In this document: positions 5,006 through 36,990 of the stretch, one piece after another | Numbering within the stretch: position 1 is the stretch's first letter | Layout of the letters: each line of letters starts with the position of its first letter | NCBI GenBank assembly: GCA_016935885.1 | Contig: JAFGQA010000101.1 | Location: 1 to 37,222, forward strand | Origin: Phycisphaerae bacterium | GTDB lineage: Bacteria > Planctomycetota > Phycisphaerae > UBA1845 > UTPLA1 | Direction of reading: 5' to 3' | Length of the DNA stretch: 37,222 nt | The notes under the pieces: generated by a model | Told to the model about the DNA's origin: nothing | Seen by the model: only the letters and a program-made list of their open reading frames with translations | The model's database searches: none | Translations under genes and position numbers: made by a program

Positions 5006-5332
5006 ATGACGATTGTTTCGATTGCCGCCGGAAACACATGTGTGTTGCGGGACACTGTCATGCACCGGTTCTTGCAAACAACGGTCGTGGCGCTGGTTAT
5101 CCGGACGTTCCTCGGGCGTCTCGGTTCGACAAGAGTTGGACATGGCGATGTTAGAGTCGCGTATCGCTCGCTTGGGCGTGTAAACAAAGGGAACGCCCCG
5201 ATTACCGGTCCCGAAAGCGCAGTCGTTTTGGCTCGCAGCGCACCTGGGACCAGACACCCGAGACGACTCGGGGACACAGCAGGACAATACGATGAGGCGT
5301 GCTTACGTCGGGTAGCAATGGCGCGGTTTTAG
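5006..5332 (+). CDS. Doubtful small ORF (108 aa) in the 436-bp gap after the heparinase-like gene
   Basis: An ATG at 5006 with GGAGAAAG just upstream opens a 108-codon frame ending at TAG 5330-5332. The product begins MTIVSIAAGNTCVLRD and is Arg-rich after about residue 35, with no domain I recognise and no clear membrane segment. Codon use is less GC-biased at third positions than in the neighbours. It may be chance. Apart from this frame I see nothing definite in 4980-5415: no terminator, and only a weak promoter-like TTGCAA near 5076. Confidence 0.2.
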   Translation: MTIVSIAAGNTCVLRDTVMHRFLQTTVVALVIRTFLGRLGSTRVGHGDVRVAYRSLGRVNKGNAPITGPESAVVLARSAPGTRHPRRLGDTAGQYDEACLRRVAMARF

Positions 5333-5415
5333 GCGTAGAATGTCCAAGCGGGGGAATGGGCCAGCAGCAAGGTCTGATACATTTCGCCGAGTGGGTTTCG
5401 TGGAGGAAGGCGGGC

Positions 5416-6420
5416 ATGTCCGAGCCGGGAGAAGCAGCGGTTCCAGAGCAGAGTGACCCGCGCGCAAGTTTGAGAGGCGTCATCCTTGCGGGCGTTTTGC
5501 GGTGGCGCGATTCTGCGTTGGAGAGGGCGGCACCAAGGTCCTTGGTGCCAATCGCGAACCGGCCACTGATCACGTATACACTGGGCTGGCTCAACGAGGG
5601 TGGAGTCAGGAGTGTCAGTGTGTGTGCCAACAGCGACACGAAGGTCCTTCGTCGTTGTCTGGGAGCCGGTGAACCGCGGGAGCTGGCGATTCGCTATTAC
5701 GAAGACCACATGCCGCGCGGACCGGCTGGGTGCATCAGGGATGCGGCACTTGAAACTGCCTGCGACACGCTCATCGTCGTGGATGGAACGATCATGCCGC
5801 AGGCAATGGATCTGGAACACCTGCTCCTAGCACACGCGCGATCGAACGCAACGATGACGATCGTTGTGGAAGCCGCACATCATGGCGGAGCGGAAAGCGG
5901 TGGACCGACCGTACCCGTGGGGATCTACGTTCTCGCCAAGCGGGCACTGGGCTACATCGGGTCCAGCGGTTACCAGGACATCAAGGAGACACTGGTTCCG
6001 AGGCTCCGTGAAGCTGGCGAGAGCATTGTCCCATACGTTGTCAAGGTGCCGGTCCCTCGGGTCATGGATGAAGAGTCGTGTCTGGCGGCAAACTCATGGA
6101 TGTTGGAGCAGATCCTTCAAAGCGCTCACGTGCCGGAGGGTTATCGACGTGTCGGCGAGGCCCTGATCCACGAGTCGGCACGAGTGGACAAGAAGGCTCG
6201 GCTGATAGGTCCAGTACTCATCGGGCCTGACACCACGGTTGAAGGCGCGGTGACGCTTATTGGGCCGACCACGGTCGGTGCTGGTTGTACGCTCTGTGAG
6301 GGGGCGGTGATCTCGAGATCGCTTTTCTGGGACGGCGTGAGAGTTGGACGGAATCGCGCCCTTGATCGCTGCATTCTCACGCGTAATGTAGAAGTGAAGG
6401 CGGCAAGGCCAACTCTCTAG
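5416..6420 (+). CDS. Degenerate nucleotidyltransferase with C-terminal left-handed beta-helix
   Basis: 334 residues with the layout of NDP-sugar pyrophosphorylases (GlmU, GCD1 and ManC-like): an N-terminal Rossmann-like nucleotidyltransferase domain (about 20-235) and hexapeptide repeats forming a left-handed beta-helix (about 247-331, for example LIGPVLIGPDTTVEG). The fold-defining opening is recognisable (VILAGVLRW then SLVPIANRPLI), but the nucleotide-binding GxGTRL signature is absent: the residues after the first beta-strand read GVLRWRDS. The metal-binding Asp region survives only as VVDGTIMP (near 121). It may therefore be a non-catalytic, regulatory or sugar-nucleotide-sensing protein rather than an active pyrophosphorylase; this is inference. 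The start at ATG 5416 is supported by GGAGGAAGG upstream; an earlier GTG at 5299 has none. Its N-terminal domain resembles that of the protein at 8840-10609. Confidence 0.75.
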   Translation: MSEPGEAAVPEQSDPRASLRGVILAGVLRWRDSALERAAPRSLVPIANRPLITYTLGWLNEGGVRSVSVCANSDTKVLRRCLGAGEPRELAIRYYEDHMPRGPAGCIRDAALETACDTLIVVDGTIMPQAMDLEHLLLAHARSNATMTIVVEAAHHGGAESGGPTVPVGIYVLAKRALGYIGSSGYQDIKETLVPRLREAGESIVPYVVKVPVPRVMDEESCLAANSWMLEQILQSAHVPEGYRRVGEALIHESARVDKKARLIGPVLIGPDTTVEGAVTLIGPTTVGAGCTLCEGAVISRSLFWDGVRVGRNRALDRCILTRNVEVKAARPTL

Positions 6421-6490
6421 CTCGTCGCGAGGCGTCGTCCGTGCGTGAAGCGATAGCGCGGCGCGTGAATCCATGAAAGAGGGAAACGAG

Positions 6491-8809
6491 ATGTCGGAAG
6501 ACAGCAGACAGGAGCTGAACAACTCCGAACGCAGCAGAAGAGACATGATCGTGCCTCACGGCCATTCAGATCTTGACTGCTGCGAGTTTCCGGAAGTGAT
6601 GCGGGCCCCTGGTCCGTTCGTGGAGCAGTCAAGCCAACATCTCCCCGAGTTCGGAGGAGTGACCGCAGTGGGACTTCTGCGGCGAAAATGGATGATGCTG
6701 GCCGTCTTTGTACTGGTGGCCGGTTCGGCGATTCCTCTGATCTGGAAGTCGGTTCAGCCGGAATTCAGCTCGACCGCCACAATCCGAGTCGCCCCTCTCG
6801 CACCTCGGGTTCTCTATAAGACCGAGAGCAACAGCATGATTCCGCTTTACCAGAACTACCTTAACACACAGGTATCCATCATTCGGAACCCCTCCGTGTT
6901 GCAGCGTGTCTTGGATCAGAAAGAAATCCAAGAAACGTCATGGTACAAAGAGAAGCCATTCGCGCTGCTCGGCAACCCTCCGACACACATGGAGAGGCTG
7001 GCGGAAGATCTTGTCGTGCGGCCACGTCAGAACACGGAACTGATCGACGTCACAATGACCACGAAGATGCCGAAGGAAGCCAAGCGAATCGTGGATGCGG
7101 TCGTGCAGCAGTATAGAGAGAGTTCAGATGGCATTCTACGAGAGACGGAGCTGCAACGGTTCGAGACGTTGAGGAACGAACTCCGAAGCGCCCAGAACGA
7201 AATCAACGGGTTGATCGATGAGAGATTCAATATCGCTGATCGGCTTGGCAGCAGTCTGCCTGAGGAGCTCAGGGCCCAGTTGACCGCACAGCTCAACACC
7301 ATGAGATCTGAACTGACGAGGCTCTGGATAGACCAGAATATCCGTGAGTTCCAGATTGAAATGCTGAGCGCCCCGGCGGAGGAAGGCGCTGCTTCGGAGA
7401 ATGTTGATTCCTCAGATGAAGGCGAGGGCAGGGTAGCGCCTGTTACTGCGCGCTATGTGCAGGATCCCACTTGGTCTCGGCGTGCCGAAGGGCTGGAAGA
7501 GGCCCGCCACAGGTTGAAGTTGGCGCGTCAGAGGTATGGCGAGGAGCACCCGACGATCCAGAGGCTGATTGCGGATGCATCCCATGCCGAGAACCTTCTT
7601 CAGGCAAGAGAGAGGGAACTGGATGAGAATCCCGATGATGGTCCTGCGCAAGCCGCGCCATCCGACGAGAGCCCAGGGGCTCGCAACCTGGCTGCGTTGC
7701 GATACGCTCACCAAGTGGAGGAGCAACGTGCGCGGGAGCTTGAGAAGGCGATCAGCAAGTTGGCGACGGAAGTTGGTGAGACCGGCACACTCGCGCGGGA
7801 GCTTGCCCGAAATGAAGAGCAGCTCGCCGCAACGCGCACTTTGCGTGACGAGGTCCACGGGCGGCTTCAAGCACTGGAAATGGAAAGCAAAGCTCCGGGC
7901 AGAATAAGCATCGCATCCGAGGGGCTCATGACCACGCAACCCTCGCGAGATCGGCGCCCCATCTTGAGCGGCCTGGCCTTGTTCGGAGCGTTCATGGCTG
8001 CCATCGGCGTTGGATACCTTCGCAGCAGCACGGATTCCACCATTTACGAGGTGGGTGACATTGCCAACGTGAGCCGCTCGCCGTTCCTGGGACGACTGCC
8101 CAGGATCGAGGGCGAGCTGGACCTGTCCCAGGATACGGCGATAGACGTCGCTCTCGAAGAGAGCATTCGGATGGTGCGCACCACCCTATTGCGACGAGTG
8201 GCCGGCGCAGGTGGTCCTGTGGTTGCGATAACCAGTCCGGGCCCGAACGCCGGGAAGACGACGTTGGCAATCCTCATGGCAAAGAGCCTCCGGCAATTGG
8301 GAAAGAAGGTGTTGCTCGTGGACGCGGATCTCCGCCAAGCCTCTCTTACGCGGGTGTTGGGCGCGGAGGACTACGGCGGACTTGTCCAACTGTTGACCGG
8401 CAAAGCCTCCCATGAGGACGTGGTGATGTGTCCCGATGGAGGCAAGTTCCATCTGCTGCCTGTCGGCCAGCGGCATGCATACAAGGATCCCGAACTGCTG
8501 GCCAATGGTGTGATGTCAGCGCACGTTGCGCGATGGAAGAAGGCTTACGACTTCGTGATCTTGGATGGTCCGCCCGTCTTGTCCACTGCGGACGGCCGCA
8601 TCCTTGCGGGGCAGGCCGACGGCGCGATCATGGTCTTGAGATCGTCCCACTGCTCGCGGACGGATGCGGTGGAGGCGTACGCCGGGCTGAGCGCCGCCGG
8701 GGCGACCCTGCTGGGAACAGTCCTGACAGGCACGCGGCACAGATCGTCGTACTACGCGTACGACTACTACATGGGCGATCGCGAGACACCGGACGAGGTG
8801 GCGTCATAG
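6491..8809 (+). CDS. Wzc/GumC-type polysaccharide co-polymerase with BY-kinase domain
   Basis: 772 residues. A cytoplasmic N-terminal tail is followed by TM1 (about 67-86), a Wzz-type chain-length domain, long Glu/Arg-rich coiled coils (about 200-290 and 330-480), TM2 (about 490-510) and a C-terminal bacterial tyrosine kinase. The kinase shows Walker A SPGPNAGKTTLA (near 582), Walker A' VLLVDADLR (near 607) and Walker B FVILDGPP (near 687). The C-terminus ends in a tyrosine cluster (SSYYAYDYYMGD, five Tyr), the site of autophosphorylation in this family. It controls EPS chain length together with the Wzy polymerase and the Wza exporter. An acidic insert (EEGAASENVDSSDEGEGR) interrupts the periplasmic coiled coil. 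The ATG at 6491 has GAGGG seven bases upstream; the ATG at 6473 lacks a site. The next gene follows after 30 bp. Confidence 0.93.
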   Translation: MSEDSRQELNNSERSRRDMIVPHGHSDLDCCEFPEVMRAPGPFVEQSSQHLPEFGGVTAVGLLRRKWMMLAVFVLVAGSAIPLIWKSVQPEFSSTATIRVAPLAPRVLYKTESNSMIPLYQNYLNTQVSIIRNPSVLQRVLDQKEIQETSWYKEKPFALLGNPPTHMERLAEDLVVRPRQNTELIDVTMTTKMPKEAKRIVDAVVQQYRESSDGILRETELQRFETLRNELRSAQNEINGLIDERFNIADRLGSSLPEELRAQLTAQLNTMRSELTRLWIDQNIREFQIEMLSAPAEEGAASENVDSSDEGEGRVAPVTARYVQDPTWSRRAEGLEEARHRLKLARQRYGEEHPTIQRLIADASHAENLLQARERELDENPDDGPAQAAPSDESPGARNLAALRYAHQVEEQRARELEKAISKLATEVGETGTLARELARNEEQLAATRTLRDEVHGRLQALEMESKAPGRISIASEGLMTTQPSRDRRPILSGLALFGAFMAAIGVGYLRSSTDSTIYEVGDIANVSRSPFLGRLPRIEGELDLSQDTAIDVALEESIRMVRTTLLRRVAGAGGPVVAITSPGPNAGKTTLAILMAKSLRQLGKKVLLVDADLRQASLTRVLGAEDYGGLVQLLTGKASHEDVVMCPDGGKFHLLPVGQRHAYKDPELLANGVMSAHVARWKKAYDFVILDGPPVLSTADGRILAGQADGAIMVLRSSHCSRTDAVEAYAGLSAAGATLLGTVLTGTRHRSSYYAYDYYMGDRETPDEVAS

Positions 8810-8839: not shown

Positions 8840-10609
8840 GTGATCATTCCAATCATTCTCGATTCTCCTGTTGGTTATCCGCACGCGGGCGCGGGTGCAG
8901 CTTCGTTGCTATCGATGCCTTTGGGACCAGGAACGGTCCTGGAGTACTTGGCCCGACTTGCCTCACGCGTCGGGGGCGACCGGCTGTTCGTTTTGAGGGA
9001 CTTCGAGGCGGGAGGCGACGGCCGAATGGCCGCTCAGAATCTCGCTGGCATGGAGCCTACCGTAGTAGGATCTGAGGGGCTGCCCGCCTTGCTACGGGGG
9101 CTTGAACCCTCGGACTGGCTGCTCATCGTCGATGCGCGTTATTGGCCATCCGGTGGTCTTGATTTCTCTGCCGTGCTGCGTGCCGGCGTCTTCCTGGGCG
9201 CGACGCACGTCGTGGCCGTGGGGTCCGGCGACGATGGCACGGTGGAGCACGTGTGTTGCGATGAGCAGGGTCAAGTGCAGTACATCCGTCGTTTGTACCA
9301 CGGCGTGACGCAAGTCGCCACGCAGCGCGGGATCATCCCCTGCTCGTTTGTGCCGGTTTCTGCGGCAACGGACATTCGCTTCACGTCTCTGAGTGAAATG
9401 AGAGTGCTGATGGCAGCCAAGAGCGTGCTGAGCCGCGATGTGTCGATCGCATCGGACATCATCGATCTGACCACGGAGCACGGGTTGCTGGCTGCCAACG
9501 AAGAGATCCTCGCCGCAACGGTCGACGGCGAGCTTGGGCCTGACTATTCAAAGCTGTCCCGCGGCGTCCTGCTGGGACGGGGGGGGCTGATCGACGAGTC
9601 TGTTGAAATCATACCGCCGGTCATTATCCAACGTGGCGCGCTGATTGAGGGAGACGTCAAGGTGGTCGGCCCTGCGTTGATCGGGGCACACAGCACCATC
9701 CAGCGTGGGGCCGTGATCGCTCAGGCGTTGGTGCTGCCAAGGACTACGGTCCCGGCCGGTGCCGTGGTGTGCCATCGTGTGGCCTCTCAAGCAAGTGTGA
9801 AGCCGGCATCCAACGAACTTCGGTCTGACGGCGAGGTTCGTGCCGCGCGGGAGAATGTGTCGAACGGCTTGGCCGCTGCCCGTATCTCGTCGTCCGCGGT
9901 CCAGAACAGGCGCATTGGCCACGTAGCCTACCGGGCGATGAAGCGTGCCACGGATTGTCTTGTGGCGGCATCTGTGCTTCTTCTATCACTGCCGGTGTCC
10001 TTGATCGTGGCGATTCTGATCAAGCTCGAATCTCGAGGGCCGGTCCTGTTTGTTCATAATCGCGAGGGCGTGGGAGGCAAAGTATTCGGGTGCTACAAGT
10101 TTCGGACGATGCACCAGGATGCGCATCGGCAGCAGCGGAAGCTGTACGGGCAGAACGAGTTGGATGGGCCGCAGTTCAAGCTGCGCGACGATCCGCGGGT
10201 CACACGAAACGGTCGCCTGCTGCGGGCAACAAACATCGATGAGTTGCCTCAGTTGATTAATGTGTTGCTCGGCCACATGAGTCTCGTTGGGCCCAGGCCG
10301 TCGCCGTTTCGTGAAAACCAGATCTGCGTGCCGTGGCGGCGGGCGAGGCTCTCGGTGCGACCGGGAATCACCGGTCTTTGGCAGATTTGCAGATCAGAAC
10401 GGTCTTCCGATGATTTCCAACAGTGGATCTTCTATGACACGTTGTACGTGCGAAAGATGTCGGCCTGGCTCGACTTGAAGATCTTGCTCGCGACGGTCCT
10501 GTCATTGGCGGGAAGGTGGAACGTCCCGTTGTCCTACGTCCTTCCTGACGAGGGCACGCAAGCGGAGGCTGTCGAGCCTGTTGGGCCTGCTATCGCTACG
10601 ACTTCGTGA
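8840..10609 (+). CDS. Fusion: pseudo-nucleotidyltransferase + LbH + initiating phosphoglycosyltransferase
   Basis: 589 residues in three parts. Residues 1-230 resemble a sugar nucleotidyltransferase (MIIPIILDSPVGYPHAGAG, then SLLSMPLGPGTVLEYLARL), without the GxGTRL signature. Residues about 253-313 are hexapeptide repeats of a left-handed beta-helix (PPVIIQRGALIEGDVKVVG). Residues about 365-570 are a bacterial sugar transferase (WbaP/PglC superfamily) domain with a membrane segment at 373-398, KFRTM (near 420), DELPQLINVLLGHMSLVG (near 467) and VGPRP. This domain transfers a sugar phosphate to undecaprenyl phosphate, the first step of EPS unit assembly. The usual N-terminal partner of long enzymes of this type is a CoA-binding-like Rossmann domain with several membrane helices, so a nucleotidyltransferase-LbH partner is unusual. 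The start is GTG 8840 with GGCGGGGG upstream. There is no in-frame break between the parts, and the linker (about 315-360) is Ala/Ser/Arg-rich. Confidence 0.9.
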   Translation: MIIPIILDSPVGYPHAGAGAASLLSMPLGPGTVLEYLARLASRVGGDRLFVLRDFEAGGDGRMAAQNLAGMEPTVVGSEGLPALLRGLEPSDWLLIVDARYWPSGGLDFSAVLRAGVFLGATHVVAVGSGDDGTVEHVCCDEQGQVQYIRRLYHGVTQVATQRGIIPCSFVPVSAATDIRFTSLSEMRVLMAAKSVLSRDVSIASDIIDLTTEHGLLAANEEILAATVDGELGPDYSKLSRGVLLGRGGLIDESVEIIPPVIIQRGALIEGDVKVVGPALIGAHSTIQRGAVIAQALVLPRTTVPAGAVVCHRVASQASVKPASNELRSDGEVRAARENVSNGLAAARISSSAVQNRRIGHVAYRAMKRATDCLVAASVLLLSLPVSLIVAILIKLESRGPVLFVHNREGVGGKVFGCYKFRTMHQDAHRQQRKLYGQNELDGPQFKLRDDPRVTRNGRLLRATNIDELPQLINVLLGHMSLVGPRPSPFRENQICVPWRRARLSVRPGITGLWQICRSERSSDDFQQWIFYDTLYVRKMSAWLDLKILLATVLSLAGRWNVPLSYVLPDEGTQAEAVEPVGPAIATTS

Positions 10610-10984: not shown

Positions 10985-12181
10985 ATGAGCGACAGTCTCC
11001 GAAGGCCTGACACGGACCGGCGAGCAAGACCGTGGCGCCACGATGCATGGGTTCCGATGCTAACCTTCGCCTTTGCTAGTCTCATCGCGGCAGGTTGCGC
11101 CGATCCGCGGATCAGCATTCACGAGTTCGTCGAGATGCAGCAGGATGCGGCGGCGCAGCCAACGACGCAGCCAAGCGATCGGACATTTGACGTGTGGGCC
11201 AAGCACGCTTTCGTTCCATACCGTGCCGGACCTTCCGACGTGCTCGGCGTGGCCCTGACGGGCCTGAATGAGCCCACCGAGACGATCGTTCTCCAGGCGC
11301 GGGTGAATCGCGATGGCGAGATCTCCCTTCCGATGGTGGGGACGGTCAACGTGGGTGATAGGGAGTTGGAGGACGTCGAACGCGCGATTGAAGCCGCTTA
11401 CGTCCCGGCCATCGTGAAAGCCGTTTCGGTCAACGTGGAGGTTGTGAGCTACCACACGACGGACGTCCTCGTTACCGGTGCCGTGACGACGCCGGGCCTG
11501 ATCCCGCTGCGGCGGACTCAACGCGACTTGCTCCACGCCGTCGCAAATGCGGGCGGTGTATCCTATGACGCGTCTGGGCAAATCACGCTGAAGCGCGTTC
11601 GAAGACCAGCGGAAGGAATCACGCTGAACGTGCTCGATCCGATCGAGCTGGAGGCAGCATTCTCCTTGGAGCCGCTGGAGTCGGGCGACGTTATTCTGGT
11701 CGAGGCGGCCACGCCGAACCAGGTGTTCGTCGGCGGGCTGGTCAGGGCCCCGGGGCCAAAGCTGTTTCCACGAGGCACGCAGGTCAATTTGTTACAGGTG
11801 CTCGCTTCCTCGGGGGGTGTGGCCACGGAAGTCGCCCCCAGTGAGGCGACGCTCATCCGGCGAATGCCGGATGGCAGGGATGTTCAGGTCAAGCTTGACC
11901 TGGACCGTCTCCAGAGGGGAGAAGACCCGAACATCATGCTGGCGGCAGGAGACATCCTTTGGGTCCCCGAGACAATTGGGACCAGGACCGTGGACTTCTT
12001 CAACCGCAATATCTTCTTCCGGGCCGGCTTCACGGCGAGCTACAACGTGACCGGCAACGCCACCGGGATCGAATGGCTGAATCGCAGATCGCGACAGAGT
12101 GGCGCGTTCAGCCAGGGGGCGACCAACGGCGGCAACACCATACAGAACATGGTTGACCCGTTCGGGTTCCTGTTCCCGTGA
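10985..12181 (+). CDS. Wza-type polysaccharide export outer-membrane lipoprotein
   Basis: 398 residues. A charged 23-residue N-region precedes a hydrophobic stretch and the lipobox LIAAGC, making Cys38 the likely lipidated residue. A polysaccharide-export (Poly_export) domain covers about 78-155 (YRAGPSDVLGVALTGLNEP). Two SLBB domains follow, at about 158-215 (VLVTGAVTTPGLIPL) and 243-295 (VFVGGLVRAPGPKLFPRG). The family forms the periplasmic and outer-membrane channel that works with Wzc. The tail (about 335-398) is Asn/Gly-rich and ends DPFGFLFP; I do not see an obvious amphipathic helix like that of E. coli Wza, so the outer-membrane part may differ. A GGAG site lies nine bases before the ATG. 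It has its own promoter at 10853-10881. Confidence 0.92.
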   Translation: MSDSLRRPDTDRRARPWRHDAWVPMLTFAFASLIAAGCADPRISIHEFVEMQQDAAAQPTTQPSDRTFDVWAKHAFVPYRAGPSDVLGVALTGLNEPTETIVLQARVNRDGEISLPMVGTVNVGDRELEDVERAIEAAYVPAIVKAVSVNVEVVSYHTTDVLVTGAVTTPGLIPLRRTQRDLLHAVANAGGVSYDASGQITLKRVRRPAEGITLNVLDPIELEAAFSLEPLESGDVILVEAATPNQVFVGGLVRAPGPKLFPRGTQVNLLQVLASSGGVATEVAPSEATLIRRMPDGRDVQVKLDLDRLQRGEDPNIMLAAGDILWVPETIGTRTVDFFNRNIFFRAGFTASYNVTGNATGIEWLNRRSRQSGAFSQGATNGGNTIQNMVDPFGFLFP

Positions 12182-12215: not shown

Positions 12216-12302
12216 TCCCAAGACCTTTGTGGCACGGACGCCGAGGTCCGCTATGAAACACCGGCGAGACGCCGGTGCCACAGTTCTGCCACAGGGGCTT
12301 CA
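12216..12302. repeat. Palindromic intergenic repeat, family A copy 1 (in 300-bp gap 12182-12481)
   Basis: Outer arms related to AGAACCTCCTGTGGCACGG and its complement flank a perfect inner hairpin CACCGGCG-AGA-CGCCGGTG (12259-12277). The element runs from GTGGCAC (12229) to GTGCCACAGTTCTGCC. Related copies lie at 14528, 17517, 27799 and 35945. The rest of the gap (12303-12481) has no gene; the frame open through it from 12275 is not supported as coding. Confidence 0.7.
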
Positions 12303-12481
12303 GAGTGCAGTTCAGCTCTACAACCCCAGATCGCCGCGATGGAGCCAGAAGGGCTCCCGACCTTGCTCGGCGGGCGTCTGTACGTTCCGTGCAAACGTAC
12401 CCCTGCCACGCAAGTCGGGGGTTCTTGGACGCTGCCACCGCCCACGATCATGATTCGCTCCAGTCAGGCGGGGTTTCCGAA

Positions 12482-13606
12482 GTGAGAACACTGATCAGCG
12501 AAATGCGCTTGTTGGCCTTGGCGGCCCTCAAGCGAATGTATCGCCCGAATGAGGGCGTCTTTGCGTTCCGGCTGCGCCGGCGATCTGATGGCGACGACCT
12601 GGAGGGTTCCAGCATCCGCTACACCGCGATGGCACTGATCGGTCTGGCAGGGGAAACGGAGGATACGTCGGCGGACGTTCTCGGCGGCCGGACCACCCAA
12701 CAGGTCTGTGCTCCGCTCCTCGCGGCGGTCACGGGGATCGGCAACCTCGGTGACGTCGCAGTCATCCTGTGGGCCGCGCGGGCCCTTGGCCATGCGGACG
12801 TGTCAAGAGCACTAACGCGCCTCAGGGCGCTGGATCCGTGTGCCGGCCGGCACGCCACCGTCGAACTCGCGTGGGCGCTGGCGGCACTGACAGCCACTGG
12901 AGACGCGTCGCCAGATGAGAAACTGGCGAGGCACGTCGCGCAGAGGCTGCTGAAGTCGTACCGGCAGCACGCTGGGATGTTCCCGCACTGGCCGAACGGC
13001 GCAAAGCCATCTTCGCTGCGGTCACACGTTGCCTGTTTCGCTGATCTTGTCTATCCAACACAGGCGCTGTCATACTACGGGGCCGCGATGGAGGACTCCG
13101 AGGCGCTGGGCGTGGCACGTGCCTGTGCCGAACGGATGTGCGCAGCGCAGGGCCCGGAGGGCCAATGGTGGTGGCACTACGACGCGCGGACCGGTCGCGT
13201 GCTGGAACGATATCCGGTTTACGCGGTTCACCAGGATGCGATGGCGCCGATGGCGCTGTTTGCCGTGCAGGAGGCGTGCGGGGCCGATTACAGCGCCGCC
13301 ATCGAGCGCGGTCTGAATTGGCTGGTCGAACCACCCGAGATCGACGGCTCGTTGATCGACACGGAGGCTCGCCTGATCTGGCGCAAGGTCGGTCGACGAG
13401 AACCCGGCAAGCTGTCTCGCAGTCTTCAGGCGATCGCGAGCGGCGTACATTCGGCATTGAGAGTGCCCGGTCTGGATTGGGTTTTCAGGCCCGGGCGGAT
13501 TGATTTCGAGTCCAGGCCGTACCACATGGGATGGCTGCTATACGCATGGTCGGGCGAGCGCGTGTCTCGCTTGCCGACCAAGCCGACGGGAGGGAGACAA
13601 TGTTAG
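12482..13606 (+). CDS. Alpha/alpha-toroid protein of unknown function (prenyltransferase/squalene-cyclase-like repeats)
   Basis: 374 residues, almost all helical, with repeated helix pairs such as SSIRYTAMALIGLAG (near 41), ATVELAWALAALTATG (near 125) and a conserved-looking core GQWWWHYDARTGRVLERYP followed by YAVHQDAMAPMALF. The pattern suits an alpha/alpha-barrel like those of prenyltransferase/squalene-cyclase repeats or six-hairpin glycosidases. There is no signal peptide and no DxDD cyclase motif that I can see. Its place between wza-like and wecG-like genes implies a role in EPS assembly or modification, but the activity is unknown. The start is taken as GTG 12482, with GGCGGGG about nine bases upstream; the alternative is ATG 12503. 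Upstream open codons lie in repeat DNA and are unlikely to be translated. Its stop overlaps the next start. Confidence 0.7.
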   Translation: MRTLISEMRLLALAALKRMYRPNEGVFAFRLRRRSDGDDLEGSSIRYTAMALIGLAGETEDTSADVLGGRTTQQVCAPLLAAVTGIGNLGDVAVILWAARALGHADVSRALTRLRALDPCAGRHATVELAWALAALTATGDASPDEKLARHVAQRLLKSYRQHAGMFPHWPNGAKPSSLRSHVACFADLVYPTQALSYYGAAMEDSEALGVARACAERMCAAQGPEGQWWWHYDARTGRVLERYPVYAVHQDAMAPMALFAVQEACGADYSAAIERGLNWLVEPPEIDGSLIDTEARLIWRKVGRREPGKLSRSLQAIASGVHSALRVPGLDWVFRPGRIDFESRPYHMGWLLYAWSGERVSRLPTKPTGGRQC

Positions 13607-14421
13607 CGAATCAGGAGACGTGGCCCGTTCGACATCTATTCGACGTACGCATCGACGCCATGAGCACAAACGATGTGCTGGCCGCCGTTGATGAGGCGAT
13701 CAGTGCTCGTCGTCGTTTGCTGATTGGCGTCGTCAACGCGGCCAAGCTCGTAAGGATGAACCGTGATGAGGCGCTGCGCCGGGCAGTCCTTGGTGCCGAT
13801 CTCATTGTTGCTGACGGCATATCCGTTGTATGGGCCTCGCGTCTGTTGCTTCGGCGTTTGCCGGAGCGGGTCGCCGGGATCGACCTGATGACGCGTATGC
13901 TGCGTCAGGCCGACGACCGCGGCTATCGGGTCTATTGCCTGGGGGCAAGCGAGGAGGTGCTGTTGAAGGTGACGGAGCGGATCCGGAAGGAGTATCCGAG
14001 GGCGGTGCTTGTCGGCGCGCGAAGCGGCTACTACGCCGCTGAGGAAGAAGAAGACATCGCGAAGGAGATAGCGGCGGCTCGGCCGGACCTGCTGTTTGTC
14101 GGCATGACATCACCAAAGAAGGAGAAGTTCCTCGCCACCTGGGCATCGGTCATGAATGTCCCGGTCTGCCACGGTGTCGGCGGCGCGTTCGACGTGATGG
14201 CTGGAAAGGTCAAGCGGGCACCACGCCTGTGGCAGCGCTTGGGCCTGGAGTGGCTGTACCGCGCTATACAGGAACCCAACCGCCTCGGGCGCCGCTATCT
14301 CGTGACCAACACGCTGTTCCTGTGGATGCTGGCCCGAGAGGCCGCCCGCGGCTTGCGACGCGCCGTTTCCGTCCCCGGCGTGTCCGGCCAAGTGGCTTGG
14401 AGCCGGGCCTGGGGCAGCTAG
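13600..14421 (+). CDS. WecG/TagA/CpsF-family glycosyltransferase
   Basis: 273 residues. It has the conserved family blocks: INAAKL-like VVNAAKLVRMN (near 44), LIVADGISVVWAS with the catalytic-type Asp72, YCLGASEEV, LLFVGMTSPKKEKF (near 166) and GVGGAFDVMAGKVKRAP followed by WQRLGLEWLYRA. GT26 enzymes transfer a sugar (ManNAc(A) in WecG and TagA) from UDP-sugar to the lipid-linked first sugar at the inner membrane, so this is probably the second glycosyl transfer after the phosphoglycosyltransferase at 8840. The ATG at 13600 has GGGAGGGAGA just upstream and overlaps the previous stop by 7 bp, indicating translational coupling. Its TAG stop (14419-14421) is also the first bases of a family B repeat, so the repeat may set the C-terminus. 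Confidence 0.92.
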   Translation: MLANQETWPVRHLFDVRIDAMSTNDVLAAVDEAISARRRLLIGVVNAAKLVRMNRDEALRRAVLGADLIVADGISVVWASRLLLRRLPERVAGIDLMTRMLRQADDRGYRVYCLGASEEVLLKVTERIRKEYPRAVLVGARSGYYAAEEEEDIAKEIAAARPDLLFVGMTSPKKEKFLATWASVMNVPVCHGVGGAFDVMAGKVKRAPRLWQRLGLEWLYRAIQEPNRLGRRYLVTNTLFLWMLAREAARGLRRAVSVPGVSGQVAWSRAWGS

Positions 14422-14883: not shown

Positions 14884-15909
14884 ATGACGCATCCCGAGCA
14901 GTCACCGAAAGCCAGGGTGGTTTACATCCTGGCTGCGAGTCATTCCGGCTCGACGCTGCTTGCCATGCTGCTTGGCTCGCATCCGGAAACGTGTACCGTG
15001 GGGGAGCTGAAGGCCACCGCGCTGGGTGACCCGGATCGCTACGTTTGTTCGTGCGGCGCCCGTATCAAGGAGTGCGCGTTTTGGCAGCGGGTGAGTGCGG
15101 AGATGGGTCAGCGCGGCGTCCCGTTCGAGATCACGAACGCCGGCACAGACATCCGGACCGGCGCAAGCCGCTATACGCGTCGCGTGTTGCGGCCCCTGTG
15201 CCGTGGTGCGATCCTTGAGCGGCTGCGGAATGCGGCTCTATGGCTCTCTCCAACGTGGCGCGCCAAGCTACCGGAGATTCAACACCGAAACCGGCTGCTC
15301 GTCGAAGCGCTTTGCGAAGTGCACGGCGTTCGGGTCCTCGTCGATTCGTCGAAGATCGGCCTGCGTCTCAAGTACCTCCTGAGAGACCCGACCCTGGACG
15401 TCAAGGTGGTGCGACTGATCCGAGATGGACGGGCTGTTGCCCTGACGTACTCCAACCCTCACGAATTCGCCGATGCGCGAGACCCACGATTGCGCGGCGG
15501 CGGTAACAGGAACCAACACGTAGAGCAACCTCGTTCTGTTCGGGCGGCCGCCCGGGAGTGGCGCCGCAGCAACGAGGAAGCTGAATGCATCCTGAGGGGC
15601 TTGCCCAAGTCGCAGTGGACCGAGGTCCGCTACGAGGACGTCTGCACCGACCCGGATCGGACGCTCGATCGCCTCTTTCGGTTCCTCGGCCTCGACCCAC
15701 AACAACGACTCCGCGATTTCCGTTCACGCACGCGACACGTGGTGGGTAACGGCATGCGCCTTGATTCAACCACCGAAATCCGCCTTGACGACCGCTGGCG
15801 ATCTGTCTTGACGCCTTCGGACCTGCGCGTGTTCGACAGCGTGGCGGGCGAGATGAACCGGCGATACGGATATACCGATACCGGTACATATAGAGACAGC
15901 CAAACGTGA
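14884..15909 (+). CDS. PAPS-dependent sulfotransferase
   Basis: 341 residues. The PAPS 5'-phosphosulfate loop is AASHSGSTLLAMLLGSHP (near 18-35). The 3'-phosphate block is VRLIRDGRAVALTYSN (near 176-191). A typical late block reads VRYEDVCTDPDRTLDRLF, then FLGL. These are hallmarks of the Sulfotransfer_1/3 fold, which moves sulfate from PAPS to a hydroxyl or amine, commonly on carbohydrates. Among Wzx, glycosyltransferase and Wzy genes the likely acceptor is the EPS repeat unit, giving a sulfated polymer (inference). PAPS-forming genes are not in the window. The ATG at 14884 has GAGGG about ten bases upstream. It is the first gene after the terminator-like hairpin and overlaps the flippase gene by 4 bp (GTGA). 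Confidence 0.88.
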   Translation: MTHPEQSPKARVVYILAASHSGSTLLAMLLGSHPETCTVGELKATALGDPDRYVCSCGARIKECAFWQRVSAEMGQRGVPFEITNAGTDIRTGASRYTRRVLRPLCRGAILERLRNAALWLSPTWRAKLPEIQHRNRLLVEALCEVHGVRVLVDSSKIGLRLKYLLRDPTLDVKVVRLIRDGRAVALTYSNPHEFADARDPRLRGGGNRNQHVEQPRSVRAAAREWRRSNEEAECILRGLPKSQWTEVRYEDVCTDPDRTLDRLFRFLGLDPQQRLRDFRSRTRHVVGNGMRLDSTTEIRLDDRWRSVLTPSDLRVFDSVAGEMNRRYGYTDTGTYRDSQT

Positions 15910-17510
15910 GTGACAGACCGAACGAGTTGAGCCCAGTGGTAGCCGAATCAGCCTCGGGCGCAGACGCAGACCTGACTGGCCAGCGCCGCATGGTCCAGAA
16001 TGTCCTGGCCAGTTGGGGCGGGCATTTGGCCTTCATCGTTGCCGGCTTCATCCTCCCGCGGTTCATGGACCGCCACCTTGGCCAAGATGCCCTGGGTGTG
16101 TGGGACTTCGGCTGGTCAGTGGTGGGATACCTGGGCCTGGTCCAAATGGGCATCAGTTCCTCGGTGAACCGTTACGTGGCAAAACACCGCGCAGCCGGCG
16201 ACGCGGAGGGTCTGCGCTGCGCCATGTCCTCCGTCTACTGGGCCCTGCTTGTCGCGGCGACCCTCATCGCAGCCCTGTCCATCACGGCAAGTTACCTGGT
16301 TCCGTGGTTGGCGGGCAGCCGCCTGGGCGCCTTCACTGCTGACGCGCGGTGGGTCGTGTTATGGCTCGGTTCGGCCCTTGCCATCCAAGTGGCGTTCGTT
16401 GTATACGACGGCGTCATAACGGGTTGCCACCGTTGGGGCCTTCACAACGGGATCAACGCCGGCTTCCACGCGGCCATCGTTTCCGGCATGATCGTGGCGC
16501 TGGTGATGGGTAGGGCTCTGCCGACGTTGGCGCTGGTCTACTGTTGCGGCGTGGCAGTGACCGAGGTGACCCGTGCCGTGGTGGCATACCACGTTTGCCC
16601 CGATCTGCGTGTCCACTTCAGGTTCGCCCGTTGGTCCTCCGCGCGGCGGATGATCACGTTCGGCGGAAAGACGTTTGTTCCCCGCATTGCCGAACTCCTA
16701 CTGGATCAGACAACGAGCATCTTGATTCTCGCCTATCTCGGCCCGGCCACGCTGGCCCTCTATTCGCGACCGCGTGCCTTGGTCCGACACGTGCGCACGC
16801 TTGTTGGCAAGCTCGCGTTTGTCTTGACTCCCGTCGCCAGTTCGTTGCAGGCGACGCAGGACAAGGAACGCGTCCGCGACCTGCTCATCAACTCCACGAG
16901 GTACGCCGCGTACATCGCCCTGCCGTTGATCCTGCTGCTGACGATCCTCGGCGATTCGATCCTCCTCGTTTGGATGGGACCTCAGTATGCCGCGGGTTTG
17001 GTCCTGGCAATCCTGGCCGTGGGCTTCCTGGCGACCGTGACCCATCAGACCGTTCTCAGCATCCTGACAGGCCTGAACGCCCACGGCAAGCCCGGCATCG
17101 CCAAGCTGGGAGCCGCTATCTGCTCGGTCGTGCTGGTCGTGCTAACGCTCGGTCCTTTGCATTGGGGGCTCGCGGGAGCGGCGATTGCCGTCACGCTGCC
17201 GCTGGCGATCGTAGATGGCATCTACGTGCCGCTCTGCGCTTGTCGCCGCCTGGGCCTATCGCTCAGGGCTTATCTGTTGCGTGCCTATCGCGGCCCCGTC
17301 GCTTGCGCGCTTCCATTCTCAGCGTGCCTGCTTTTGGCCCGTGCGCTGTTTGCGGATCGGCCGTCTGTCGGCCTGGCGTGTGGTCTGGCGACTGGCGGAC
17401 TGATCTTGTTGCTGGCTTACTGGAAGTACGCCCTCCCGGCACGCGCACGCTCCGGGATCGCAACGCTCGTGAACGCCGTTGCGGGCCGCTTCGCCCGGGC
17501 TCGACTTTAG
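15906..17510 (+). CDS. Wzx-type flippase (MOP superfamily polysaccharide transporter)
   Basis: 534 residues with about 12-14 hydrophobic segments in the pattern of PST/Wzx proteins. The start contains SWGGHLAFIVAGFILPRFMD, followed by GVWDFGWSVVGYLGLVQMG and VNRYVAKHRA, typical of the first helices of this family. These proteins flip the undecaprenyl-linked repeat unit from the cytoplasmic to the periplasmic face. The GTG start at 15906 overlaps the sulfotransferase stop by 4 bp, so the two are translationally coupled; sulfation before flipping would be consistent with that arrangement. The first 25 residues are hydrophilic and acidic. Confidence 0.9.
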   Translation: MSDRPNELSPVVAESASGADADLTGQRRMVQNVLASWGGHLAFIVAGFILPRFMDRHLGQDALGVWDFGWSVVGYLGLVQMGISSSVNRYVAKHRAAGDAEGLRCAMSSVYWALLVAATLIAALSITASYLVPWLAGSRLGAFTADARWVVLWLGSALAIQVAFVVYDGVITGCHRWGLHNGINAGFHAAIVSGMIVALVMGRALPTLALVYCCGVAVTEVTRAVVAYHVCPDLRVHFRFARWSSARRMITFGGKTFVPRIAELLLDQTTSILILAYLGPATLALYSRPRALVRHVRTLVGKLAFVLTPVASSLQATQDKERVRDLLINSTRYAAYIALPLILLLTILGDSILLVWMGPQYAAGLVLAILAVGFLATVTHQTVLSILTGLNAHGKPGIAKLGAAICSVVLVVLTLGPLHWGLAGAAIAVTLPLAIVDGIYVPLCACRRLGLSLRAYLLRAYRGPVACALPFSACLLLARALFADRPSVGLACGLATGGLILLLAYWKYALPARARSGIATLVNAVAGRFARARL

Positions 17511-27860: not shown

Positions 27861-27906
27861 CGTGTTTCGTTGGAATCCTCGCTGGAACAGAGGGCGAGTC
27901 GCACGA

Positions 27907-29295
27907 ATGCGCGTATATGTTCTTTACATGCTCGTCGCCTTCCTGTCCATCTACGCATACCGCCACTGGTACCGCTCCCTCTGCGGCCTGATCCTCCTCA
28001 TGGCGGTCATTGAGCACCCCGACATGCCCAAGAACATGATGGACATCCAGGGATTAAACCCCTGGAACGTCCTGCTGGCCAACGTTCTCGTCGGGTGGTT
28101 CATCAGCCGGCGTCGCGAGGGACTACGATGGGACATGCCCCGCTCGATCAGCCTGCTGCTGATCCTGTATTTCCTCGTCGTGCTGATCAGTTCGCTCCGT
28201 ATGTTGGCCGACCCCACCAACCTGGAGGAATTCACGACGGCTCAATTGATCAGCGAGAACTTGGTCAACACATTCAAGTGGGTCATCCCCGGATTGCTCT
28301 TGTTCGATGGTTGCCGATCTCGCCGACGTTTTCTCATAGCGATTGCGTGTATACTGGGCGTATACGTGCTCCTCGCCCTCCAGATCGCTCGTTGGATGCC
28401 ACCAAGCGCAGCCATCACTGGAGGAGAGCTTGCGCAGCGAAGCCGCAAGATCATCCTCAACGAGATTGGCTATCATCCAGTAAACGCATCGATGATGCTC
28501 GCGGGCGGCGCATGGGCCATCCTTGGCACGTGGCCGTTAGTGAAGCGCCGCCGAGATAAAGCGATCATCGTCGCTTCCGCTCTCTTGGTTTCATACGCTC
28601 AGGCGCTGACCGGCGGCCGGATGGGTTACGTAACATGGGGCACCGTAGGGCTGGTGTTGTGTTCGTTGCGTTGGCCGAAGCTAATCCTCATTATCCCAGT
28701 CCTGTCAATCACCATCGTGTCCCTCCTGCCGGGTGTACGCGAGCGGATGTTCTCGGGCTTCGGAGAAGTTGACATTGCTGGTCAGACGTACGTGGATGAT
28801 TATAAGATCACATCGGGTCGAACACTGGCATGGCCACACGTTGTCGCTCGAATTGGCGAATCGCCAATCATCGGCCACGGGCGCCTGGCGATGGTCCGCA
28901 CTGGATTGAAGGATTTCCTCTGGGATGAATACCGGGAGGGCTTTGCGCATCCTCATAATGCATACCTTGAGTGGCTTCTGGACAACGGCATCTTGGGCCT
29001 ATTGCTCATCACTCCATTCTACATGCTCATCGTGGTGCGCGCCGCGCGTCTATTGCGCAACTCACGTGACTCCCTGTCCGTGGCTGTCGGCGCTACGGCT
29101 CTTGCTCTGGTCCTTTCGTTGCTGATAGCCTCCCTTGGCAGTCAGACCTTCTATCCAAGAGAAGGATCAGTTGGAATGTGGTGTGCCATCTGTTTGATGC
29201 TGCGAATATGGACGGAACGTTCAAGGAGACCAATACTCAGTATGGCGTTTTCGTCAGGACTGCGTGTGGGGCGAACAGCTCGCCCGCGGTTCTGA
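27907..29295 (+). CDS. Wzy-like polymerase / O-antigen ligase family membrane protein
   Basis: 462 residues with about 10-12 hydrophobic helices. It has the large periplasmic loop and downstream block of the O-antigen ligase/Wzy_C family: GESPIIGHGRLAMVRTG and FAHPHNAYLEWLLDNGILG, then LLLITPFYMLIVVRAARLL. Such proteins polymerise or transfer undecaprenyl-linked glycans in the periplasm. With Wzx, Wzc and Wza in the same locus, a polymerase role is more likely than a ligase role (inference). The ATG at 27907 places the first helix (VYVLYMLVAFLSIYAYR) at the N-terminus; an earlier GTG/ATG-frame start at 27862 would add 15 basic residues. Confidence 0.85.
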   Translation: MRVYVLYMLVAFLSIYAYRHWYRSLCGLILLMAVIEHPDMPKNMMDIQGLNPWNVLLANVLVGWFISRRREGLRWDMPRSISLLLILYFLVVLISSLRMLADPTNLEEFTTAQLISENLVNTFKWVIPGLLLFDGCRSRRRFLIAIACILGVYVLLALQIARWMPPSAAITGGELAQRSRKIILNEIGYHPVNASMMLAGGAWAILGTWPLVKRRRDKAIIVASALLVSYAQALTGGRMGYVTWGTVGLVLCSLRWPKLILIIPVLSITIVSLLPGVRERMFSGFGEVDIAGQTYVDDYKITSGRTLAWPHVVARIGESPIIGHGRLAMVRTGLKDFLWDEYREGFAHPHNAYLEWLLDNGILGLLLITPFYMLIVVRAARLLRNSRDSLSVAVGATALALVLSLLIASLGSQTFYPREGSVGMWCAICLMLRIWTERSRRPILSMAFSSGLRVGRTARPRF

Positions 29296-29358: not shown

Positions 29359-30699
29359 ATGGACTACGAACACATACAGGAGTGCGGGACCAGTCAGCCC
29401 AATTCGCGAGGAACCTTCGTTCGCAGACGAGGACTGCTGGTGACGATTGTGTTTGTGGCGCTCGTCGGTCGGTGCGCCGTTGCCCTATGGCTGCCACCCA
29501 CCGCCACCTTTCCAGACGGACATCGATACAACCGGATTGCGAGCAACATACTGGCGAACGGCGTGTACCCGGAGAGCGAAGAGGAATCAGCTCCACTTCA
29601 CCCGTTGTTGTTGGCTGTGCTGTACTCAGCGGCAGGCGAGAATGTCCCCGCGGCCAGGCTCATGATCGCGGTGCTGGGATCGCTGACTTGCTACGTGATG
29701 TTCAAACTGGGGAAGGTGCTTTTCGACCCCGTAGTCGGGCTCGTTGCAGCGGCCTTGTTGGCGGTCTATCCCCTCCACGTCTTCACGAGTGCCCTCTTTG
29801 AGTATCCCACGTGCCTGTTCATCCTACTTCTCAACTGCACCATCTTGCTGGCACTCGGTGTGCGGTCGAACCCCAGGAGTTGGGCGCGATGGATCTTGAC
29901 AGGTATGGTATTAGGCTTGGCGGCCCTTGCCGTGCCAACCGCGCTCACAGCGGCGCCGTTCATCGCCCTCTGGCTGTTGCGAAGCTGTCCGATCAAGTAC
30001 AAAGCCCGCCTCACCGGCGTAACGCTGCTCATCCTTGGCTGTCTCTCCACCGTTTTGCCGTGGAGTCTCTATTGGTACGCCCTGACCGGTCACGCCCAAC
30101 TGATCACCGGCGGCACCGCCGAGAACTTCTTCAAAGGCAACTGTCCGCTCGCTTGGGACTTGGGCAAGGCAGACATCGCCGATGTATACGCGGAAGAGGG
30201 GGCGCCTCCCGAACAACGCGCGGCCTACAACGACTATCTCCAGGTTGAGAGCAGGGCTCGCGCTTGGCCCGCCGGGCCCAGGCGCGACAAGGTATACTAC
30301 GATGCCGTGAAGGCGTATTACACGGCCCGACCGAGGGAGGCGCTTGGTTTGCTGGCGAGGAAAGCCGCGATGTACTGGCTTCCTTACGCCAAACCGGTTA
30401 CGAAACACCGCACGGACAACAACTACACGAAAATCCTCCAGTTCATTACATTCGTTCCCGTTGCCCTGCTGGCCCTCGTCGGCATCTGGTTTGCAAGAGC
30501 TCGATGGCGAGAACTCGCGATCATCTACCTCGTTGTCATCACCCAATGGCTGACATACAGCGTGTTCCTGGTGACCGCGCGCTATCGTTCACAAATCGAT
30601 CCGCTTCTCATTCTCCTCGCGTCATCCGTTCTGGTCACGTGGGGCCGCCAACTGACTCGCCGCCGCGGCTCGTCCACCTCCCCATCGAAAACACCTTAG
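29359..30699 (+). CDS. GT39/ArnT-like membrane glycosyltransferase
   Basis: 446 residues with about 10 membrane segments. After the first helix (LLVTIVFVALVGRCAVALWL) comes the first periplasmic loop with DGHRYNRIASNILANG and HPLLLAVLYS, the pattern of PMT/ArnT-type GT-C transferases, with an acidic residue early in the loop. Such enzymes use polyprenyl-phosphate sugars on the outer face of the membrane, so this may add a side sugar to the EPS or glycosylate a protein. A C-terminal loop contains Tyr-rich KVYYDAVKAYYTARP. The ATG at 29359 is preferred over a TTG at 29314. Its TAG stop overlaps the TAA stop of the convergent beta-helix gene. Confidence 0.82.
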   Translation: MDYEHIQECGTSQPNSRGTFVRRRGLLVTIVFVALVGRCAVALWLPPTATFPDGHRYNRIASNILANGVYPESEEESAPLHPLLLAVLYSAAGENVPAARLMIAVLGSLTCYVMFKLGKVLFDPVVGLVAAALLAVYPLHVFTSALFEYPTCLFILLLNCTILLALGVRSNPRSWARWILTGMVLGLAALAVPTALTAAPFIALWLLRSCPIKYKARLTGVTLLILGCLSTVLPWSLYWYALTGHAQLITGGTAENFFKGNCPLAWDLGKADIADVYAEEGAPPEQRAAYNDYLQVESRARAWPAGPRRDKVYYDAVKAYYTARPREALGLLARKAAMYWLPYAKPVTKHRTDNNYTKILQFITFVPVALLALVGIWFARARWRELAIIYLVVITQWLTYSVFLVTARYRSQIDPLLILLASSVLVTWGRQLTRRRGSSTSPSKTP

Positions 30700-35224: not shown

Positions 35225-35914
35225 ATGGCTCACAGATTCTGGCTTGCTGTGGTTCTGGCCACAACCTTGCTCATCGGTGGGGGCATCGTTTATCGGGTGG
35301 TGGCAAGTCGGTACGCGCGTTCGGTGGACAGCGAACCCCTGCCCCCCGGCACGCTGGCACAGTTGCCGTTCGAAATACAGGACTGGCGCGGACGCGACGT
35401 CCCTCTTGAAGAGGCCGTCATCCGAGCGACGGATACGGACCAACACCTGAACCGTATATATACGCGAGACACGCACAGGGAGGCCGTCTCGGTCTTCGTT
35501 GCCTATGGCGTTCGTTTACGGGACCTGATGCCCCACCGCCCGGAAGTCTGCTACCCGGGTACAGGATGGACCTTTCAAGACAGTCGGGATGTCGATCTTC
35601 GGCTGGACGATGGTTCGACACTGCCTTGCCGGATTCTTCACTTCAATCGTGGCGGCTTGATGAATCAACACGTCACCGTGTTGAACTACTACGTTGTGGA
35701 CGGGGTGTTCTCCCCCGATGTCGAGCTGCTTCGGTCAAGGATCTGGAAGCCGTCGGGCGGGGCGGACTATGTTGCACAGGTGCAGATCACTTGCGCAAGT
35801 GATGCATTCGGGCCATTGACTGATGAGGCTGTGCGGGCGTTTGGCTCAGCTTCCGCGATTCCGATCCGCTGTCTCTTTCCGAGCAAGGGACCCGAGTCGG
35901 ACAGGCAGAGCTGA
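35225..35914 (+). CDS. epsI: Exosortase-associated protein EpsI (DUF3485)
   Basis: 229 residues. One N-terminal membrane segment (about 4-24, WLAVVLATTLLIGGGIVY) is followed by a periplasmic DUF3485/EpsI domain with the signature HRPEVCYPGTGW (104-115, Cys109). A downstream core reads RILHFNRGGLMNQHVTVLNY. EpsI proteins accompany exosortases, often fused to them, in EPS/PEP-CTERM systems; their exact role is unsettled. The ATG at 35225 has GGGAG seven bases upstream. The exosortase gene follows after 143 bp, most of which is a family A repeat. Confidence 0.92.
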   Translation: MAHRFWLAVVLATTLLIGGGIVYRVVASRYARSVDSEPLPPGTLAQLPFEIQDWRGRDVPLEEAVIRATDTDQHLNRIYTRDTHREAVSVFVAYGVRLRDLMPHRPEVCYPGTGWTFQDSRDVDLRLDDGSTLPCRILHFNRGGLMNQHVTVLNYYVVDGVFSPDVELLRSRIWKPSGGADYVAQVQITCASDAFGPLTDEAVRAFGSASAIPIRCLFPSKGPESDRQS

Positions 35915-35944: not shown

Positions 35945-36035
35945 GAAGCCTATCCCATGACCTCCTGTCGTGTGGTCCTCTGGTCCGCTGCGCAACCTTG
36001 GCGGGACGCCGTTGCCACAGTTCTGGGATGGGCTC
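35945..36035. repeat. Palindromic intergenic repeat, family A, between epsI and exosortase
   Basis: The left arm GAAGCCTATCCCATGACCTC pairs imperfectly with the right arm GCCACAGTTCTGGGATGGGC. Here the inner hairpin has decayed (GGCGGGACGCCGTTGCCAC). The exosortase start lies 22 bp beyond, so the repeat is in the operon's untranslated spacer. Confidence 0.65.
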
Positions 36036-36057
36036 CTACAGCTATAGGAAGACGATC

Positions 36058-36990
36058 GTGACCAGAGCGAAGCCCGAGTTGAGACATCGGCACAGCCGAC
36101 GTTCAGTGGAGCAGACCGAAGGCGGTGGAAGGCGTGGCCTCGTGACACCGTGGCTTGCCATTGGATTGATCTCGGCGACCCTGTTGTGGGCATACTGGCC
36201 TACCATCGTGCTGCTCGTCAAGGAATGGCACGACAACGATGACTACTCGGTCGGGCAGTTGGTGCCTCTTGTCGCACTCTACTTGGTGTGGCAGGAGCGT
36301 CGCGGGCTGCGCGAGTGCGTCGTCCAGCCCTGCTGGTGGGGTCTTGTGCTGATCTTCCTGGCGGAGTTCGGCCGCGCATACGGGCTGGTCTTCATGTACG
36401 AATCCGCTGAGAGGTACGCCCTCGTGCTGATGATCGTTGGCCTGACGTTGCTTCTGTCGGGCTGGCAGGTCTTCTACAGGGCCCGCTGGATTCTCCTGTT
36501 CCTGTTCCTTATGGTCCCGCTTCCCGGTCGCATCCACAATCTGGTTTCCGGCCCCTTACAGAATCTTGCAACGGTGTGCGCGGGATTCACGCTTGAGCTG
36601 CTCGGCGTAACGGCCGTTCGCGAAGGCAACGTCCTTGTGCTCAATGGCGAAGTGCCGTTGGCGGTTGCCGAGGCGTGCAGCGGGTTGCGGATGCTCACCG
36701 CGTTCGTTGTCGTGGCTTCAACACTCGCCTTCGTGATCAAGCGCCCGCGTTGGCAGAAAGCAACGTTGGTGGTATCCAGCGTTCCGGTGGCGATCGTGTG
36801 CAACCTGGCGCGGCTCGTCACAACCGCCCTGCTGTACCTTTGGGCGAGCAGCGAGACGGCCGAGCGGTTCTTCCACGACTTCGCCGGCCTGACGATGATG
36901 CCGCTGGCCGTCTTCATTCTCGTCTTCGAGCTGTGGCTCATGTCGCGCCTGGTGGTCGAGGAAAGCCATCCCAAGACTGCCAGCCGATAA
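36058..36990 (+). CDS. xrt: Exosortase (membrane transpeptidase-like sorting enzyme)
   Basis: 310 residues with about eight membrane helices. The three exosortase active-site blocks are all present: AEACSGLRML with Cys207, NLARLVTTALL with Arg252, and HDFAGLTMM with His273. Exosortases recognise C-terminal PEP-CTERM-like signals on exported proteins and are thought to cleave and attach or release them at the cell surface, in step with EPS production. The first roughly 40 residues are basic and cytoplasmic. GTG 36058 was chosen because AGGAAG lies six bases upstream; an ATG at 36028 falls in repeat DNA without a site. No substrate with a visible PEP-CTERM tail is encoded in full in the window. 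The exact subtype (XrtA, B and so on) cannot be assigned. Confidence 0.93.
   Translation: MTRAKPELRHRHSRRSVEQTEGGGRRGLVTPWLAIGLISATLLWAYWPTIVLLVKEWHDNDDYSVGQLVPLVALYLVWQERRGLRECVVQPCWWGLVLIFLAEFGRAYGLVFMYESAERYALVLMIVGLTLLLSGWQVFYRARWILLFLFLMVPLPGRIHNLVSGPLQNLATVCAGFTLELLGVTAVREGNVLVLNGEVPLAVAEACSGLRMLTAFVVVASTLAFVIKRPRWQKATLVVSSVPVAIVCNLARLVTTALLYLWASSETAERFFHDFAGLTMMPLAVFILVFELWLMSRLVVEESHPKTASR

Follow-up and report, generated by a model that had tools for sequence, protein, structure and literature searches.

A catalytically dead-looking nucleotidyltransferase and beta-helix module fused to an initiating phosphoglycosyltransferase, and its paralogous partner, in exopolysaccharide loci of Phycisphaerae

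The window, by which we mean the whole stretch of 37,222 nucleotides of Phycisphaerae DNA analysed here, holds a Wzx/Wzy-type exopolysaccharide (EPS) locus. Genes on its forward strand encode a stand-alone degenerate nucleotidyltransferase (NTase) with a left-handed beta-helix (LbH), hereafter the partner (5299..6420), a Wzz/BY-kinase-type chain-length protein (6473..8809), the fused protein that is the subject of this report (8840..10609), a Wza-type polysaccharide export protein with Poly_export and SLBB domains (10985..12181), a WecG/TagA/CpsF glycosyltransferase (13531..14421), a Wzx-type flippase (Polysacc_synt; 15906..17510), a Wzy_C/O-antigen ligase-type polymerase (27862..29295), an EpsI-type DUF3485 protein (35225..35914) and the exosortase EpsH (35998..36990). 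The fused gene opens with a GTG codon 30 bases 3′ of the kinase gene, and its 589 codons join a predicted pseudo-nucleotidyltransferase, an LbH and a monotopic phosphoglycosyltransferase (PGT) in one frame. On the minus strand inside the EPS/exosortase cluster, a 1372-aa ORF (30696-34814) carries Ig-like, PKD, carboxypeptidase-regulatory and beta-helix domains and has no obvious PEP-CTERM tail.

Monotopic PGTs are recognised by an Asp-Glu dyad and a single re-entrant hydrophobic segment. The PF02397 PGT domain of the fused protein spans residues 366-556 (9935..10507, forward strand) and matches Pfam at 368-555 with 204.3 bits against a cut-off of 27 (E 1.5e-60). K420, R422, D467-E468 and R486 are each present in all 90 aligned fused sequences, a set that includes the window's own protein and is not fully independent, P0017 and L054, whose contigs share a length of 42,987, being probably one protein. 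We take D467-E468 to be the catalytic dyad, the meaning of which is known from PglC. The only strong hydrophobic segment is at residues 370-399, with P385 kept in 88 of the 90. Judged by its sequence, the PGT half carries those residues that a functional enzyme would be expected to have. The initial annotation had set this protein apart from WbaP-type enzymes for want of their membrane helices and CoA-binding-like domain, and this stands: Pfam gave no PF13727 match at E ≤ 1, helix-bundle-like hydrophobic segments are absent from residues 1-345 (highest 19-residue mean 1.65), and the contrast agrees with the portions of PMC10942596 that describe WbaP.

In front of the PGT lie an NTase-like Rossmann domain devoid of a G-loop (residues 1-234; 8840..9541), assigned on conservation and fold, and an LbH hexapeptide domain (residues 236-313; 9545..9778), assigned on weak Pfam hexapeptide signals within 237-313 and on fold; both are on the forward strand. 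An active acyltransferase role for the LbH was considered from the fold only. A deeper structure model of the N-domain, used in place of an earlier one with a pLDDT of 69 and poor residues 144-162, predicts an NTase Rossmann fold for residues 1-234 and bears out the NTase-like fold with a short LbH that had been proposed for this N-terminus. PF00483 (NTP_transferase) found no match in the fused protein at E ≤ 1 in Pfam, and the module matched a canonical NTase profile at an hhalign probability of 44, a weak score of little weight since that profile had five members.

Sugar nucleotidyltransferases carry a GxGTRL-type loop with a following Lys, and an E-K-P hairpin. The loop had been noted as missing from the window's protein, and indeed the pattern G.G[TS][RK] occurs in the first 60 residues of 0/90 fused sequences, the window's included. 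The position of the loop Lys is Ser in 78/90, E[KR]P occurs in 1/90, and R151, present in 90/90, stands where a canonical relative has the Glu of E-K-P; by profile alignment the fused domain keeps the hairpin and lacks the G-loop. Among control NTase ORFs from five fusion-holding genomes the loop pattern was found in 7/14 and related variants in four of the other seven, a control that is imperfect, recovery by ORF length having missed two of the 16 loci. These motifs indicate that the N-terminal module is probably catalytically dead as an NTase, and the N-domain as an active NTase was set aside on motif loss.

The loss of motifs is accompanied by a distinct pattern of conservation in the NTase-like domain, at D8, S22, P27, E89, D92, D98, E136, R151, Y153 and D200. 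E136 is present in 89/90 fused sequences, D209 in 74, D98 in 70 and Y153 in 75, with Phe replacing the latter in 13; of the 81 core members, all have P27 and D200 and 78 have D8. The sequence is otherwise divergent, mean column identity of alignment A7 being 39%. This pattern looks like remodelling under constraint and not free decay, and E136, R151 and similar invariant residues may have a structural role only. D98 is Asn in seven of the eight members of one clade, the exosortase-fusion clade described below, so that any ligand site would differ between clades.

The fusion recurs in many genomes. A search with residues 1-345 gave eight relatives and a profile search eight more, with the PGT present in 13 of the 16; these 13 were aligned with the window's protein, two of them starting about 26 residues late. 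P0011, P0015 and P0018 resemble the N-domain without a PGT, and are stand-alone, truncated or frameshifted. A scan of one genome per species found 179 relatives, and among the best 80 of these both halves are present in 77 and three are cut, which confirms the uninterrupted single-frame architecture that had been reported. A private oddity or frameshift artefact was rejected on the same ground, relatives with both halves occurring in many genomes. The best 80 of the 179 come mainly from records named Phycisphaerae, Phycisphaerales, Sedimentisphaerales or other Planctomycetota, with seven named Acidobacteria or Vicinamibacteria and two Gemmatimonadaceae, the named records being mostly metagenome-assembled genomes. 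One record named Alphaproteobacteria (L019) nests in a tight Phycisphaerae clade of the tree and is probably mis-binned. Since the species scan ran on the full-length alignment and its patterns derive from the PGT half, the N-domain was later searched alone; it matched in 65 of 248 genomes, all of one class, that of G001 (a record named Phycisphaerales).

Eight regions with weaker matches were read. In seven of them a further PGT of 474-539 aa was found, its N-domain being both reduced in length and more degenerate; L120, the eighth, has a form of 567 aa. The alignment of the reduced forms to the N-domain profile covers mainly the part beyond about position 70, and the front of their N-domain is lost or unrecognisable, which argues against a conserved ligand pocket in these distant forms and not against a scaffold. 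A PGT-domain tree of 93 rows unites all 85 fused and reduced forms in one group (100/99), with the eight remaining rows, other PGTs from these genomes, outside it. Five such coexisting PGTs are WbaP-like as judged by size and eye only; the fusion is therefore no simple replacement of the WbaP type, and the idea that the fused PGT replaces all others was rejected, other PGTs coexisting in the five genomes checked. Other PF00483 proteins were likewise present in 5/5 fusion-holding genomes checked. At L138:8347-9796 (minus strand), N-domain and PGT occupy two overlapping ORFs of 291 and 289 aa, either a natural split or a sequencing frameshift.

The initial annotation omitted the partner gene and its fusions, and this gene is the strongest clue at the locus. 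The window's partner matches PF00483 at E 1e-6 (above cut-off) and LbH_EIF2B at E 5e-10 (below cut-off). Its homology starts near codon 58, a TTG at about 5470; P0072 (291 aa), listed for the same contig, is a shorter form of this protein with a start that is probably too late. Compared by hhalign, partners and N-domain modules align with a probability of 99.8 (E 6e-30) over 267 columns. The partners also appear degenerate: G.G[TS][RK] is found in 1/67 and E[KR]P in 2/67, and in the window's partner, whose loop is degenerate, profile alignment shows the stretch with E-K-P and the Asp of 'NGD' to be gone and a GPAG-like loop to be kept. Relatives of the partner are named NDP-sugar synthase or mannose-1-phosphate guanylyltransferase in databases, likely misannotations, given that the loci examined are without the catalytic motifs.

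Partner and fused PGT are almost strictly paired. Counting matches of at least 200 aa in 76 loci, 62 of which have more than 4.8 kb upstream, a partner homologue lies 5′ of the fused PGT in 61 of these 62; L065 has none despite its upstream sequence. The gap between the two is below 600 bp in 16/66 loci and at least 2 kb in 48/66, usually with a BY-kinase gene in between. In 18 distant regions, picked out of the weaker N-domain matches and not comprising all of them, a partner lies upstream of the reduced PGT in 17/17 testable cases, L136 being too short, and five of the distant partners share a G(F/Y)(V/I/M)D(L/M)(K/N)EQ stretch. Seen from the other side, 58 partner matches at E ≤ 1e-35 in the 248 genomes have an N-domain within 8 kb in 47 cases and PF02397 in seven more; neither an N-domain nor a PGT was found within this distance for the other four (G145:C24, G022, G161 and G092:C16), some of which may be explained by contig breaks. 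No strong partner match was found in G252, the genome of L056; the match of L056 begins 248 bases from the end of that locus. Ten neighbourhoods of ordinary PGTs, a small control drawn from four genomes with two neighbourhoods cut short on one side, held partner, N-domain or exosortase HMM matches in 0/10 at E ≤ 1e-3.

The partner is in turn fused to other enzymes. In the exosortase-fusion clade, eight loci (L072-L076 and L078-L080) of which two are named Sedimentisphaerales, the partner ORF reaches 655-665 aa in six of the seven loci that hold a partner; that of L074 is 367 aa, and L076 has too little upstream sequence. The C-terminal part of these long partners is an exosortase, matched by PF09721 at E 1e-56 in L080 and by exosortase models in L075, and found in the other four by an HMM built with those four included. 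In the distant loci a WecG/TagA/CpsF glycosyltransferase opens the long partner ORF in 8/8 scanned; there the partner part is recognised by a custom HMM and not by Pfam's NTase model, and the L134 partner has no Pfam match at E ≤ 0.01. An exosortase match by custom HMM lies directly 3′ of the partner in 15 of the 18 distant regions. With flanks of at most 10 kb, WecG homologues occur in 35 of the best 80 loci and an unfused exosortase in five, besides six fused. In the window itself WecG and exosortase each have a gene of their own, at distances of about 3 and 25 kb.

PGTs with added domains are already known, and the pair of a PGT and an NTase-LbH is without description in the literature searched. 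This literature contained no characterised enzyme of this architecture, in keeping with what had been supposed, and no description of a PGT-NTase-LbH fusion; an earlier mention in the survey of PGT fusions by O'Toole et al. 2021, which reportedly includes fusions to sugar-modifying enzymes, is possible. The fused protein shares with WbaP/WcaJ (PF13727 + PF02397) the catalytic core, an accessory domain in front of it and the pathway step, whereas the four-helix bundle and PF13727 are missing and an NTase-LbH module stands in their place. Like the small and bifunctional monotopic PGTs (PglC and its fused forms), it has the catalytic core alone in the membrane with a soluble domain added; the domains of the bifunctional enzymes are, in the parts of PMC10942596 and PMC12802240 consulted, functional, sugar-modifying or regulatory, in contrast to the apparently dead NTase here. 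In the manner of a GMPPA-like regulatory pseudo-NTase, the fused NTase-LbH, inactive as judged by its motifs, is encoded together with a second NTase-LbH; in human GMPP the contacts between GMPPA, which is inactive, and GMPPB, which is active, are mainly or solely those of the LbH domains, according to sections of PMC9168903. The present pair, a genomic one, differs from GMPPA-GMPPB and from VTC1-KJC2 in that both chains look inactive and that one carries a membrane PGT. The gamma and epsilon subunits of eIF2B were compared by fold only.

The reading that we favour, by a slight balance of probability, is that the fused protein is an initiating EPS PGT whose dead NTase-LbH module forms a hetero-oligomer with the partner, tethers the PGT and may gate it. 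The WbaP-type helix bundle and PF13727 would have been replaced by this module, and the two NTase-LbH chains would hetero-oligomerise through their LbH domains at the cytoplasmic face, a tether proposed from the LbH pairing of GMPPA and GMPPB. The lipid-linked first sugar is a common substrate of WecG-family enzymes. The assembly would place the PGT (step 1) beside the WecG-type glycosyltransferase (probably step 2) and the exosortase, and the lipid-linked first sugar would be handed on within it. Physical assembly is the best explanation for the fusion of the two paralogues to exosortase and to enzymes of the first and, probably, the second step. Against this it must be said that gene pairing is no proof of contact and that the partner often is not adjacent. 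In addition, the PGT may be gated by binding of a nucleotide sugar, nucleotide or sugar phosphate in the remodelled NTase pocket. Such gating is a plausible second layer, because the front domain of WbaP, a DUF of another fold, is reported in the consulted part of PMC10942596 to act as a sensor of uridine nucleotides, inhibition of WbaP by UMP having an apparent IC50 of 4.1 µM, a precedent for nucleotide sensing by a PGT front domain.

The same precedent could be carried further, to an N-terminal module that solely binds nucleotide, nucleotide sugar or sugar phosphate and switches the PGT allosterically, the partner being a second sensor subunit and the proximity of WecG and exosortase operon logic only. 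The near-invariance of several residues of the NTase-like domain accords with this, as does the finding, reported in PMC11228364, that non-catalytic GMPPA binds GDP-mannose and regulates GMPPB. It leaves unexplained the partner's fusions to WecG-type glycosyltransferase and exosortase, which speak for scaffolding no less than for sensing, and the lost or unrecognisable front of the domain in distant forms counts against it; we consider it unlikely. The latter point also weighs on a bifunctional enzyme that would make NDP-sugar via an unusual loop and channel it to the PGT. Fusions of sugar-modifying enzymes to PGTs are known (PMC12802240, in part), and the fold and the acidic D98 and D209 are partly kept; set against the absent G-loop pattern, the Ser in place of the loop Lys, the Arg at the E-K-P Glu and the other PF00483 proteins of the same genomes, this makes for a very improbable account. 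A passive N-terminal remnant that aids only folding or membrane positioning of the PGT would fit the overall divergence and the shortening in distant clades. It is hard to reconcile with residues that hardly vary among diverse sequences and with a partner that is almost always co-conserved, and is in our view quite improbable. Scaffolding is more likely than sensing, and the two together are quite possible.

A more far-reaching version of the tethered assembly is offered tentatively, as one that we would sooner expect to fail than to hold. An EPS initiation complex spread within one class of the Planctomycetota would consist of two paralogous dead NTase-LbH chains, derived from a sugar-nucleotide-making ancestor, that form an obligate heteromer and physically join the PGT to the exosortase and to the WecG-type second glycosyltransferase. 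Remodelled, complementary half-pockets, the sugar hairpin in one chain and the GPAG loop in the other, would read nucleotide-sugar supply and license the commitment of undecaprenyl phosphate.

Undecaprenyl phosphate is scarce and is tied up at the committed step. Few cellular controls of that step are named in the literature consulted, those in PMC10942596 and PMC12802240 being the action of UMP on WbaP, that of a response regulator on EpsZ and tyrosine phosphorylation of CapM. The fused family would represent a different solution to the control of initiation, built from dead metabolic enzymes, and through gene fusion it links the exosortase to EPS initiation. The data suggest that in certain bacteria that have been little studied the start of polymer synthesis is organised or gated by dead enzymes working as a pair.

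Two further genes of the window recur at these loci. A heparinase II/III-type lyase (2955-4979) near the 5′ edge of the cluster has homologues in 32 of the best 80 loci. A 443-aa protein (12275-13606), with no Pfam match at E ≤ 0.01, has homologues in 36 of the best 80 loci and is possibly another member of the same assembly. At L011:10628-13612 (51% identity) and L023:9995-13009 its homologue lies inside the PGT's own ORF, C-terminal to the PGT, in proteins of 995 and 1005 aa, respectively.
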